Translations under genes and position numbers: made by a program
Assembly: GCA_937900875.1 (NCBI GenBank)
Contig: CALCGD010000085.1
Coordinates: 1-49,463 of the forward strand
Reading direction: 5' to 3'
DNA from: an uncultured Flavobacteriales bacterium
Lineage (GTDB): Bacteria > Bacteroidota > Bacteroidia > UBA10329
Length of the DNA stretch: 49,463 bases
The notes under the pieces: generated by a model
What the model was told of the DNA's origin: nothing
Databases searched by the model: none
What the model saw: the letters and a program-made list of their open reading frames with translations, nothing else
Part shown: one piece after another, positions 27,016-31,622 of the stretch
Position numbering within the stretch: the first letter of the stretch is position 1
Layout: each line of letters begins with the position of its first letter

Positions 27016-27891
27016 TTACAGAGCCGTTACTCTAGCCGTAAGGTTAATTCTAAGTTGCTCCGAAACTTGCACCAATGGAAGCCTCACGTATTCTTCGCAT
27101 ACACCAAGTGCTTTTAGGGCGCATTTAACTCCTGCTGGGTTCCCTTCTGCAAACAATAAATTCACGATATCAAACAGTTGATATTGTAGCTTTCTAGCAG
27201 TTTCAAAATCTCCAGATAAGCTTGCATTTATCATACCTGAATAGTGCTTAGGTAATGCATTTGCAACCACAGAAATTACACCATCCCCTCCACTTGCAAT
27301 AAGCGGTAGACTAAAGTTATCATCTCCAGAAATGACCAAGAAATCTTCAGGTTTATCCTTGATGATTTTCATGCACTGATCTAAACTACCTGACGCCTCT
27401 TTTATGGCCACAATGTTTTCGAAATCAGAAGCTAAACGCAATGTTGTTTCAGCTTCCATGTTGGAGCTGGTTCTGCCCGGTACGTTGTACAGAATTACTG
27501 GCAATGGAGATGCGTTCGAAACCGCTTCAAAATGAGCGTAAATTCCATTTTGTGTTGGTTTATTATAAGCTGGCGAAACGGAGAGTATAGCGGTTAGTCC
27601 AGTTACATCTAATGCAGTAAGCTGAGCACAAACCTCTGCTGTATTATTACCACCTACACCTAACACAACGGGGACTCTACCGTCATTTGCTGCAACCACA
27701 CAATCCAGTACATCAGCTTTCTCTTGCTTGTTAAGAGTAACACTTTCGCCAGTGGTTCCCATCACAACTAGGTAGTTTACCCCACCATCGATTAAGTGAT
27801 GTGTTAGTTTTTCGAGTGCCTCAAAATCAACACTTCCATCAGATTCAAAAGGAGTTATCATGGCAACTCCAGTACCCTTCAACTCGTTCAT
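27016..27891 (-). CDS. dapA: 4-hydroxy-tetrahydrodipicolinate synthase (DapA)
   Basis: A 291-residue cytoplasmic class I aldolase that condenses pyruvate with aspartate semialdehyde, the first committed step of lysine and diaminopimelate synthesis. Landmarks are GTGVAMITPF at the N-terminus, VMGTTGESVTL (the GTTGE motif), VILYNVPGRT (catalytic Tyr) and IVAIKEASGS (Schiff-base Lys at about 161), then VISGDDNFSLPLIASGGDGVISV. Length is normal. Its start overlaps the upstream DUF6913 stop by four bases, so translation is probably coupled. Confidence 0.97.
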   Translation of the reverse strand: MNELKGTGVAMITPFESDGSVDFEALEKLTHHLIDGGVNYLVVMGTTGESVTLNKQEKADVLDCVVAANDGRVPVVLGVGGNNTAEVCAQLTALDVTGLTAILSVSPAYNKPTQNGIYAHFEAVSNASPLPVILYNVPGRTSSNMEAETTLRLASDFENIVAIKEASGSLDQCMKIIKDKPEDFLVISGDDNFSLPLIASGGDGVISVVANALPKHYSGMINASLSGDFETARKLQYQLFDIVNLLFAEGNPAGVKCALKALGVCEEYVRLPLVQVSEQLRINLTARVTAL

Positions 27892-28463
27892 TTTTTCTGG
27901 TTTAACATGCTCAAGTAGTGCTTAATCTGGGTGACCAAATATCCTAAATCGGCATTATCATCCACATTAATCATCAGGTCGTAAAAATCTTTGTACCCTT
28001 CTCCAAAACGCCCTACTTTAAACTGGGCTCTTGAAAGCCCTACGATAAACAGCACGGGAATAGATCTATTTAATCGCAAATCAATCAGTATGTCAAACGG
28101 TTCGCTCATAAAGCCAACCACCTTTCTGCCTTGGGGTTTAAAAAACCAATTGAAATCTTCCTTAGAGAAAAAATCAAAATCTTGACTTGATTGAAGAAAA
28201 GAGGCCACTTCGGTTTTAGGTACAAAACCAAGTGCTTTCACCTGTCTTAATCCTCCTCCGCGAAGCTCAGTAGAAAAATCTCTAATTACCTTGAATGTGA
28301 GTTCATCTTTTGCATTGAACAGTACGCCAATACTCCGAGCAGATTCTAATCCTAGTCCTTGAACCTCACGATTTCGAATGCGCATTTCCTTTTTAAGGAA
28401 ATACGATCCAACAGCCAATCTGACTTTGTTGACAATTGCGATATCCGGCAGCCATTGCTTCAC
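27888..28463 (-). CDS. DUF6913 family protein
   Basis: A 191-residue cytoplasmic protein of the DUF6913 type found in Bacteroidota, with no assigned reaction. It has no signal peptide. Basic helical N-terminus (NKVRLAVGSYFLKKEMRIRNREV), then alternating strands and helices with SIGVLFNAKDELTF, VKALGFVPK, DFNWFFKPQGRKVVGF and DILIDLRLNRSIPVLFIVGLSRAQFKVG. Its four-base overlap with dapA ties its expression to lysine/peptidoglycan precursor supply. Whether it acts in that pathway is unknown. Confidence 0.8.
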   Translation of the reverse strand: MKQWLPDIAIVNKVRLAVGSYFLKKEMRIRNREVQGLGLESARSIGVLFNAKDELTFKVIRDFSTELRGGGLRQVKALGFVPKTEVASFLQSSQDFDFFSKEDFNWFFKPQGRKVVGFMSEPFDILIDLRLNRSIPVLFIVGLSRAQFKVGRFGEGYKDFYDLMINVDDNADLGYLVTQIKHYLSMLNQKK

Positions 28464-28541: not shown

Positions 28542-29744
28542 CTACTGTTTCTTAGCCACACCTCGCACATCGTACTCGCGTTTAGTAACACGAATTTCGT
28601 TTTCGAGTCGTTGTTTTGTTCTAAAACCAAGCAGATGAAATATTTCAATGACCATCAAACGAGCAACACGCTTATTTACTATCAATGTGTGCTTATCCTG
28701 CTTGTCTCTAGTTACTCCAGGTAGGATTGTAAGCAGCTGTTCCACCTTAAGTTTTCTCAACACTGCAGAAAGTTTGAGCCAATATTTTGAGACTTCTCTA
28801 ACTAGGAAAAAACCATCATCGCCTTGCGATTGGTAAAGCGGCATAAAAATTCTACCAGTTTCTTGAGCCAACACTTCTCCATGGACATTATCTGCCAGCG
28901 GTTGTGCTTCTTTTACTGCTTGTAAATTTGAAAAGCCAGGGCGCATTTTAAACTCATCTCCTGCTAAAACGGCCTTCCTATGTCGTACTTCATAAACACG
29001 GTCCATGTTTACGTTAGACGCGGCCAAGGTGAGGTGGTGCTTGCCAAAATCTGACGCTTCATCCTTCGAAATGAGACCACCATGCACTAACGATAACCAC
29101 ACAAAAGCTTTATGATACTTCACGCTATCTGGATGATAATGTTCTCCAGCTTCAAAAGCCAAGGATGGATAGCCGATTTCCATAACCCAACTCAGTATAG
29201 GTCCAACTAGAAATTCCTCGATTCCAATGATTACAGGTAATGGGAATTTTGTAGCAAAGTTTCTATTAATCAGCGTATCGTTTAGAGTGATAAACGGAAC
29301 GGTTGGCGCTGAAGTAGTGTGTAAATCGATGCAATACACTTGATGCTCGTGCTTTCGAAAGATTTCCTTGCCGATGGCATAAAGCTCTAATTGCTCTTTT
29401 TCGTCAGCATTCGCTGTTTCAAAATTGATGTCTCCTTTTTCGATAGCTCGGATACGCTTCTTGGTCCAAATTCGGTTTAAATCCTCCGATTCGAACCGTA
29501 TGTTTTTCTCAAGTGCATTTAGATTTCCTGCCAGGGCATAAATGCTACCATTTATAACAGGCTGAGTTTCCTCAATTTCCTTCATCACTTCCATAAGGGC
29601 TAGAACGCCAGCTGCTTCATTGCCGTGTACTCCACCAAAGAAGACCAGAACTGGTCCTTCTTTTTTCCCATGAAACTCACCAATAATCCGTTCGGTTTCG
29701 AAATGTTTATCGAACGTTTTGCTGTAAAATCGTGTTTTGCTCAA
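28542..29744 (-). CDS. Succinylglutamate desuccinylase/aspartoacylase family zinc deacylase
   Basis: A 400-residue zinc-dependent amidohydrolase of the AstE/AspA family. The zinc ligands HxxE sit in FFGGVHGNEAAG (about residue 40), the third ligand in YCIDLHTTSAP, and a catalytic Glu probably in LAFEAGEHYHP. The C-terminal 150 residues form a beta-rich domain (VLAGDEFKMRPGF, EVLAQETGRIFMPLY), then a helical tail. Family members remove acyl groups from N-acyl amino acids. It is three bases downstream of the GCS2-CBS amidoligase gene, so the pair is very likely one operon: one enzyme makes an amide bond and the other cuts one. The actual substrate is not deducible here. Confidence 0.85.
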   Translation of the reverse strand: MSKTRFYSKTFDKHFETERIIGEFHGKKEGPVLVFFGGVHGNEAAGVLALMEVMKEIEETQPVINGSIYALAGNLNALEKNIRFESEDLNRIWTKKRIRAIEKGDINFETANADEKEQLELYAIGKEIFRKHEHQVYCIDLHTTSAPTVPFITLNDTLINRNFATKFPLPVIIGIEEFLVGPILSWVMEIGYPSLAFEAGEHYHPDSVKYHKAFVWLSLVHGGLISKDEASDFGKHHLTLAASNVNMDRVYEVRHRKAVLAGDEFKMRPGFSNLQAVKEAQPLADNVHGEVLAQETGRIFMPLYQSQGDDGFFLVREVSKYWLKLSAVLRKLKVEQLLTILPGVTRDKQDKHTLIVNKRVARLMVIEIFHLLGFRTKQRLENEIRVTKREYDVRGVAKKQ

Positions 29745-29747
29745 CTC

Positions 29748-31622
29748 CTACTCTTCTTCCAATTCAACCACATCAAACTTAGTAATAACGCCTACCAATT
29801 TGCCATGATATATGACAGGTAACGACCCAATTCCTTTCTCAATCATCAGCTTCTTTGCAGCCGCAATGCTCTCGTTTGGTTCTACAGTAACCACGTTGCG
29901 TTCCATTATTTCTGAGGCAAACCTGTTTCCGTACTCACCGAACTTCTCCTTTGCCAGTTTTAGGTTAGTTGTTGTAATAATCCCGATACATTCCCCCGCT
30001 TCGTTTTCCACCGGTAAATGATGAAACGACCGCCACTTCATTATTTTCTCAACCAACTCCACCAAATCATGCTCATGAACGGTTTGTGGGTCGGTGCTCA
30101 TAACCTGATAAACTTGCTCTAGTTTGAGTTCATTTCCAGTGAGTTGAGATAAATTTGCCTGCTCCCATTCCCCTACTGGTTTTCCACTACACTGATTTCG
30201 ATGCATTAGTGCCGTCATTCTTCTCAGTGCAACGTCTTTTAAATGCCCCTCTTTCAGTGACCTATAAGCTCCAGTCATCCACTGCGCACCATTTCTGCTA
30301 GTTAGTCTTTGACGAATAACCCCTAGGTAATTTCGGATAGAAGCATCGTCAATCCCCGCCTTACGAAGGCCGTTTTCTGCAATGGGAAGCAATTCATCAT
30401 GAATAAGTTCTTTGGTATCTACCACTTTGCCCATCCATTGCAGTTTGGTTTCCATGCCGCTTATTGCAGCACGTAAGAAATTGGCTTTCACTCTTCTAAA
30501 ATCCATTTTCTCCCACATTTTAGAATACTCTTCTGGCATTCCCTTCATCAACCCTACCCAAAAAGCAAAATTGGCCATCTCATCCAATATTGTTGGTCCA
30601 GATGGAATGTATCTATTCTCGATTCTCAAATGTGCAACGCCATTTGCAACGCCATAACATGGCCTGTTCCAACGGTAAACAGTACCGTTGTGCATTCTGA
30701 GTGCCTTTAGTTCTGGGATTTTTCCTTGTTTTAGTAATTCCAGAGAATCGTGCTCAACATCTGCCGCCACCAAGAATGTAAAGCGTGCAATATCTTCTTT
30801 AAAAATCTCCGAAATTGATTCTCTTACCCAGCGCGTTCCGAACGTGACACGCGGTTGCTGCTCTCTTATTAGTGTTGAGCCATTTCGGATATCCACACTT
30901 TGCTGAAATAGTGCTATGCGTGTTTCTGCCCATAATTCTTTTCCAAGCAATAATGGAGAATTAGCAGAAACTGCGAGAACGGGTCCAGATATGGCCTGCG
31001 CCCAATTATACTGCGCTACTGCATCATCTTGTTCTATTTGAAGATGTGCTTGAAAACTAGTGTTGCAAGCCTCAAAAACAATAGAATCGTGCTTGGCAAT
31101 GAGCTGATCAACTCCCTGAATATTCAGTTCGAATTCCCCTCCCTTATGCTCCTTCATCCTTCGGTTTAATTCCTCAAACCGAGGATTGACTGTCATATGT
31201 TCGAATTCAACATGACGCGGAGTAATGGTTGGCAATATTCCAGTGAGCACAATATGAAGTTGCCTTTTTTCGGCTTCAAACTGCACTCGTTCCATCAGTG
31301 TTCTGAGCTGGTTTTCTAATTTGTCAAATCCATCCTTGGTGAGTTCTTGGGGGTCGAGATTTAACTCCATGTTGTATTTAGCCAACTCTGTGGTAAAGTG
31401 TGGGTCATTTACAGCCTTCATCAATTCAGAACAAGCATCTGCAGGCTCCCAGTTCCTATTTGTAATACAAAACTCTTGTTCCGCACCGATGCGCTGTATT
31501 CCACTTTCAAACTTCCTTTCAGCAATCATCTGATCGAAAGCATCTATGTCGTGAAGAATATGGCGAAGGAAATTTGCGCGTTCGCGCAAATTGGAAATTG
31601 ATTTTACTGATTCGTCTCCCAT
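29748..31622 (-). CDS. GCS2-family carboxylate-amine ligase fused to a CBS domain pair
   Basis: A 624-residue cytoplasmic protein. The start at 31622 (MGDESVKSI) fits the family; a further in-frame start at 31670 adds 16 unlikely residues. Residues about 1-470 are a glutamate-cysteine ligase type 2 fold: IGAEQEFCIT (metal/substrate Glu), FEHMTVNPRFEELN, FEACNTSFQAHLQI, SANSPLLLGKELWAETR and HLRIENRYIPSGPT. Residues about 490-620 are two CBS motifs (MSTDPQTVHEHD, FHHLPVENEAGE, IMERNVVTVEPNE, IGSLPVIYHGKLVGVI) that usually bind adenine nucleotides. ATP-dependent ligation of an amino acid to a carboxylate, with CBS regulation, is likely; the product is unknown. It need not be glutathione synthesis, since no partner gshB lies here. 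Confidence 0.85.
   Translation of the reverse strand: MGDESVKSISNLRERANFLRHILHDIDAFDQMIAERKFESGIQRIGAEQEFCITNRNWEPADACSELMKAVNDPHFTTELAKYNMELNLDPQELTKDGFDKLENQLRTLMERVQFEAEKRQLHIVLTGILPTITPRHVEFEHMTVNPRFEELNRRMKEHKGGEFELNIQGVDQLIAKHDSIVFEACNTSFQAHLQIEQDDAVAQYNWAQAISGPVLAVSANSPLLLGKELWAETRIALFQQSVDIRNGSTLIREQQPRVTFGTRWVRESISEIFKEDIARFTFLVAADVEHDSLELLKQGKIPELKALRMHNGTVYRWNRPCYGVANGVAHLRIENRYIPSGPTILDEMANFAFWVGLMKGMPEEYSKMWEKMDFRRVKANFLRAAISGMETKLQWMGKVVDTKELIHDELLPIAENGLRKAGIDDASIRNYLGVIRQRLTSRNGAQWMTGAYRSLKEGHLKDVALRRMTALMHRNQCSGKPVGEWEQANLSQLTGNELKLEQVYQVMSTDPQTVHEHDLVELVEKIMKWRSFHHLPVENEAGECIGIITTTNLKLAKEKFGEYGNRFASEIMERNVVTVEPNESIAAAKKLMIEKGIGSLPVIYHGKLVGVITKFDVVELEEE

Follow-up and report, generated by a model that had tools for sequence, protein, structure and literature searches.

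A GCS2-CBS ligase and an AstE-type zinc hydrolase encoded as a conserved two-gene unit in a Flavobacteriales genome

A 49,463-nucleotide stretch of DNA from an uncultured Flavobacteriales bacterium (GenBank assembly GCA_937900875.1, contig CALCGD010000085.1, positions 1 to 49,463; the window) carries on its reverse strand a gene for a carboxylate-amine ligase, followed directly by one for a zinc hydrolase. The question raised by this locus is why an enzyme of an amide-forming family should be encoded together with one of an amide-cleaving family. A sequence-only reading had described the two genes as a unit with three bases between them, and inspection of the sequence bore this out, both open reading frames (ORFs) being intact. 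The following features were identified.

29748..31622 (-): GCS2-fold carboxylate-amine ligase with a C-terminal CBS pair, 624 amino acids, ATG start (ORF, Pfam GCS2 and CBS, AlphaFold, Foldseek)
31473..31487 (-): GhExE motif of the active site, G46-A-E48-Q-E50, where GCS2 enzymes bind Mg/ATP (all 34 relatives keep G46, E48 and E50)
29763..30116 (-): CBS domain pair, about residues 503-620 of the ligase (Pfam CBS in two stretches; PDB matches to AcuB)
29745..29747 (-): 3-base gap from ligase stop to hydrolase start (sequence)
28542..29744 (-): AstE/aspartoacylase-type zinc hydrolase, 400 amino acids, TTG start (ORF, Pfam, hhalign, AlphaFold, fold matches)
29616..29627 (-): H40-G-N-E43 zinc motif of the hydrolase (invariant or near-invariant in 26 relatives; aligned to AstE motifs)
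28575..28793 (-): additional module of about 75 residues at the hydrolase C-terminus, roughly residues 318-390 (alignment, model)

The ligase and the hydrolase

The ligase ORF ends in a TAG stop codon at 29750-29748, and its ATG start codon at 31622 (protein beginning MGDESV) was supported by residues M1 and G2, which at least 90% of the 34 relatives share. The CBS model of Pfam matched in two stretches (E=3.4e-25), and the nearest solved structures to this part found by Foldseek were those of AcuB with AMP/ADP. The match to the GCS2 model (PF04107) was weak (E=1.9e-4, about 21.3-22.4 bits against a cut-off of 21), and a PF04107 search of the bacterium's own genome at E<=0.001 missed the window ligase, indicating that the standard GCS2 model is weak here; 29 of the 34 relatives match it, the best at E=1.4e-11. 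NCBIfam models for YbdK, glutamate-cysteine ligase (GCL) and EgtA were matched weakly by the relatives, with the window ligase scoring far below their cut-offs. A confident AlphaFold model (predicted local distance difference test, pLDDT, 90.5) was found by Foldseek to match yeast GCL, YbdK and plant GCL, with GCL structures at the top and E values of about 1e-13 to GCL and YbdK. The motifs of the superfamily, namely GhExE, acidic residues on strands 2 and 3, [HQ]x[NH], Ex[RK] and two arginines, have been defined previously (PMC2588565). The GhExE motif lies within a predicted strand of the model (residues 44-54), and the residues corresponding to the remaining motifs (E79, E86, Q191-A-H193, E335-N-R337 and R235/R258/R320) are invariant in the 34 diverse relatives, their assignment to core strands being made from sequence order and DSSP rather than superposition. 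With Pfam, motifs and Foldseek in agreement, the protein is a carboxylate-amine ligase of the GCS2 fold that carries a fused CBS pair and keeps its catalytic residues; the sequence-only reading had likewise seen a GCS2 ligase with CBS domains. Fold and catalytic motifs are common to this ligase and the GCS2/YbdK-type ligases (PF04107; YbdK 1R8G, plant GCL 2GWC, yeast GCL 3IG5), from which it differs in its identity of about 15% to YbdK, its borderline Pfam score, its C-terminal CBS pair and its placement in a large Bacteroidota clade of its own.

The hydrolase was identified by Pfam AstE_AspA_cat (E=4.9e-15) and by hhalign, which aligned it to E. coli AstE with 98% probability. Its AlphaFold model is confident (pLDDT 89.5), with fold matches to AstE, EutE/DoeB, aspartoacylase (ASPA) and the cyanophycin dipeptide hydrolase CphZ. 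The expected active site is completed by D88-L-N90-R91, D140-L-H142 and E198 (26 relatives; AstE alignment), and the zinc ligands H40, E43 and H142 and the catalytic glutamate E198 are invariant. The protein is an AstE/aspartoacylase-type zinc hydrolase with its catalytic residues kept, in agreement with its original description as an aspartoacylase-like deacylase. It is not a succinylglutamate desuccinylase or aspartoacylase proper by the NCBIfam models, scoring 40-43 bits against cut-offs of 170-306. While zinc site, catalytic glutamate and fold are common to it and the AstE/aspartoacylase/EutE (DoeB)/CphZ hydrolases (PF24827), it differs from these in forming its own subfamily, with an invariant MPLYQ motif, a frequent extra C-terminal module and an amide ligase as partner. 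No Pfam match was obtained for the C-terminal module, which is absent from short relatives of about 305-330 amino acids.

Conservation of the pair

Among 395 Bacteroidota genomes surveyed, with presence judged at one search threshold, the ligase was identified in 116 (in 23 of them, family f19, the match ends before the CBS region) and this hydrolase subfamily in 59, both being held by 56. Family names of survey genomes (e.g. Balneolaceae for f25) were inferred from identical contigs or from similarity to named loci. By coordinates, the genes are adjacent in ligase-hydrolase order in 51 of the 56, and the five genomes with non-adjacent genes all belong to family f6. Ligase and hydrolase also occur in the same genome much more often than chance would allow (odds ratio 86; p about 2e-31 for the 395 genomes, which are related, so that p is only descriptive). 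The two gene trees also agree, with a distance correlation of r=0.88, a value that 1000 shufflings of the labels never brought above 0.35. A scan of the wider collection gave 80 named loci, including Flavobacteriaceae, Cyclobacteriaceae, Balneolaceae and a metagenome-assembled genome (MAG) of Calditrichales, and the pair was found across many marine and soil bacteria. The neighbourhood survey that had been proposed as a check, with the idea to fall if the pair were not conserved, thus shows the pair to be kept.

Analysis of 136 neighbourhoods (a slightly redundant set, as a few genomes occur twice) placed the hydrolase directly downstream of the ligase in 102, usually overlapping it or at most 25 bases away. 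Gaps at these 102 loci range from -274 to +25, mostly -50 to +25, the commonest being -4, -14 and +3, with the large overlaps depending on the start codon chosen. Because the gaps vary in this way, the reading frame shared by ligase and hydrolase in the window is no general feature. When grouped by shared neighbours, the pair neighbourhoods fell into 31 different contexts; 23 of these are unique, the context of the window being one of them.

The dependence between the two genes was found to be one-sided at the threshold used: 56 of the 59 hydrolase genomes hold the GCS2 ligase, and 60 of the 116 ligase genomes are without the hydrolase. The three remaining hydrolase genomes (G053, G273 and G367) have no GCS2-CBS gene, the hydrolase adjoining a GshB-like ligase of the ATP-grasp type and a MATCAP/QEGLA peptidase instead, in an arrangement that in G273 involves the opposite strand. 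All 59 therefore hold a GCS2 or a GshB-like ATP-grasp ligase, which the hydrolase adjoins in 54, and the hydrolase thus has amide ligases of two unrelated kinds as neighbours. That this hydrolase family stands beside ATP-grasp enzymes elsewhere had been anticipated, as had the lack of one at this locus: no RimK/GshB or other ATP-grasp gene adjoins the pair in the window, and RimK occurs near the ligase in one of the 136 neighbourhoods (L115, an Aureispira MAG), where the paired hydrolase is missing. RimK was rejected as a partner of the pair on this ground.

At sampled f19 loci, a divergent hydrolase of the AstE type comes after a ligase without CBS, and the pairing is therefore not dependent on the CBS domains. 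Several Balneolaceae (e.g. L078:8113-11983) carry tandem GCS2-CBS copies, both with intact active sites, before a single hydrolase; these tandem ligases may represent two specificities.

A possible make-and-break module and its alternatives

The reading favoured here, to which roughly even chances are given, is that the pair acts as a make-and-break module, in which a gamma-glutamyl-type amide is made by the ligase and cleaved by the hydrolase, with the ligase tuned by adenylates through its CBS pair. The gene structure, the intact catalytic residues and the folds were observed, as were the recurrence of the pair in contexts that are not related and the dependence of the hydrolase, but not of the ligase, on its partner; glutamate as the acid, action of the hydrolase on the ligase product and adenylate control are what we infer. 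The GCS2 domain would use ATP to phosphorylate the carboxylate of a side chain, most probably the gamma-carboxylate of glutamate, and would join the activated carboxylate to an amine. The zinc hydrolase would then cut this amide, or an immediate derivative of it, so that acid and amine are set free again. Adenine nucleotide would be sensed through the CBS pair, and in this way the metabolite would be made at suitable energy charge and otherwise recovered. The module is favoured by the one-sided dependence: the ligase without the hydrolase is common and the hydrolase without a ligase was never seen, a pattern that fits a product-cleaving enzyme better than a supplier of substrate. Taken further, the pair may tentatively be seen as a two-enzyme switch, gated by nucleotide, for making and recovering a new gamma-glutamyl-type metabolite (an energy reserve, osmolyte or thiol) in much of Bacteroidota and related phyla, a proposal that is possible rather than probable.

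Several points weigh against this interpretation. Agreement between the gene trees is expected from shared descent alone, and ligase-only lineages show that this hydrolase is not required for the ligase to function. The asymmetry between the two genes may itself result in part from search thresholds (f19 hydrolases fall below the cut-off) or from lineage effects. An hhalign comparison of the ligase with the single E. coli YbdK sequence gave no match, and no ligase came up when the ligase domain was used for a profile search of the PDB; taken with the borderline GCS2 score, these results mean that the substrate is not readable from sequence. For neither protein did the literature searched yield any biochemistry.

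A somewhat unlikely alternative is a sequential, one-way biosynthetic pathway, in which the hydrolase would free the amine used by the ligase or would trim a protecting gamma-glutamyl group after a third enzyme had acted. The AstE family comprises classic N-acyl amino acid deacylases (AstE, EutE and ASPA are among the fold matches), and gamma-glutamyl protection with later removal is an established theme, e.g. EgtA/EgtC in ergothioneine synthesis. However, no third enzyme is constant in the 102 pair neighbourhoods, where putative operon neighbours belong to many unrelated families, and a hydrolase that feeds the ligase is disfavoured by the many ligase-only genomes and by the presence of another ligase in the hydrolase-only ones. 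The ergothioneine pathway itself, with the ligase as EgtA (gamma-glutamyl-cysteine ligase) and the hydrolase replacing EgtC in removing gamma-glutamate after EgtB, was considered improbable. It would account for the order EgtB-EgtD-GCS2CBS-GCS2CBS-hydrolase on one strand in the Balneolaceae genome G108, for an EgtD gene about 2.7 kilobases upstream of the pair in G227, and for the presence of EgtD in 66 of the 93 GCS2-CBS genomes compared with 62 of the 302 others, although this co-occurrence is inflated by relatedness and 27 of the 93 lack EgtD at the threshold used, 12 of these also holding the hydrolase. The bacterium's own genome likewise has EgtB (492 bits, cut-off 360) adjoining EgtD (290.4, cut-off 290.9) at L184:8271-10355 on contig C26, from which it probably makes ergothioneine. 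By sequence, however, the EgtB proteins of this genome and of G108 are by far closest to CthEgtB (339 and 486 bits, compared with 101 and 151 for MthEgtB) rather than to an EgtB that uses gamma-glutamyl-cysteine. Since CthEgtB prefers cysteine over gamma-glutamyl-cysteine (PMC10903977), EgtA and EgtC would not be needed. The EgtA model of NCBIfam gave the window ligase 12 bits against a cut-off of 370.8.

Equally improbable is the modification of a protein or peptide, in which the ligase would add glutamate or another acid and the hydrolase would remove it, in the manner of PafA/Dop or RimK/RimB. The Pup ligase PafA has GCS2 as its nearest family (PMC2588565), and RimK/RimB is a known add-and-remove pair (PMC12239564); on the other hand, among the ORFs listed, which covered lengths from 80-90 amino acids upwards, neither a conserved small tag-like gene nor a ribosomal one constantly accompanies the pair, and the hydrolase fold matches mainly small-molecule deacylases. 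Ordinary thiol metabolism, with the ligase as the GCL of the glutathione pathway and the hydrolase in a recycling role, draws on the GCS2 family name and fold and on the GCL structures among the top Foldseek matches, but it is the most improbable reading of all. In this genome GSH-S_ATP matched only RimK and, on another contig, an 895-amino acid frame with an ATP-grasp match, no dedicated GshB was found, and the genome has the bacillithiol enzyme BshC (407 bits). A standard glutathione role, which the sequence-only reading had named as a finding that would overturn its proposal, is thus unlikely. At L185:10405-13065 (same genome, contig C16), an 886-amino acid ORF at a weak ATP-grasp match is possibly cyanophycin synthetase-like.

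Related systems and neighbouring genes

The proposed make-and-break module resembles several known arrangements. A GCS2-type ligase and an enzyme that removes gamma-glutamate, as proposed for the pair, are found in EgtA and EgtC of ergothioneine synthesis; EgtC is not of the AstE type. Ligase-hydrolase amidoligase clusters were reportedly described in a 2009 survey by Iyer and colleagues. Clusters of MATCAP (QEGLA/DUF1704), a GshB-like ATP-grasp enzyme and an N-formylglutamate amidohydrolase (FGase) or AstE likewise place an amide ligase and an amidohydrolase side by side, and three of these clusters contain the same hydrolase family as the window. The pair differs from them in having a GCS2-CBS ligase instead of an ATP-grasp one, in lacking MATCAP and in comprising two genes only. 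MATCAP/QEGLA with GshB-like ATP-grasp and AstE-type hydrolase genes was observed at L186:6379-10286, L187:2490-6358 and L188:9407-13269, and several other MATCAP/ATP-grasp loci (among L199-L208) have an FGase-type protein in the hydrolase's neighbourhood. A 653-amino acid 'GCS' match in L186 was discarded as a CBS-only protein, and a MATCAP search of the bacterium's own genome was negative.

A second ligase-hydrolase pair was identified in the same genome on contig C91 (L031:1210-3040), where RimK (S6-glutamate ligase model, 373 bits) overlaps a EutE-like hydrolase; a similar pair is present in L115. It is like the window pair in having a ligase adjoining an AstE-family hydrolase, and differs in that its RimK has the ATP-grasp fold and its hydrolase is of a different subfamily, the two pairs being unlinked.

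No paper on the ligase-hydrolase pair was found in the open-access literature searched. Both enzymes come from known superfamilies, and ligase-hydrolase clusters are a known kind; the GCS2-CBS fusion, paired with a hydrolase of its own in a unit of two genes that stands alone, is regarded as a variation on that kind. The ligase with CBS is present in about a quarter of the sampled Bacteroidota genomes, many of which keep the hydrolase joined to it. The pair being self-contained, its metabolite should be directly findable by genetics in culturable Flavobacteriaceae or Cyclobacteriaceae, and its identification would give a function to two large protein groups now named only in general terms.

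Scans for promoters and terminators gave nothing convincing above shuffled sequence, and Bacteroidota promoters differ. The next same-strand genes in the window (27016-28463), a DUF6913 gene and dapA, overlap each other by 4 bases and lie 78 bases downstream of the hydrolase, a pattern that is not repeated at other loci. Genes that recur near the pair in Balneolaceae and Flavobacteriaceae (PriA, ScpB, RluB-like, ComM and similar, judged by reading of the sequence) were set aside as lineage synteny only. In two lineages that lack the hydrolase, a gene for an MscS-type mechanosensitive channel is located just downstream of GCS2-CBS on the same strand (L070:7971-9053 and L052:7361-8473), pointing to a possible osmotic link.
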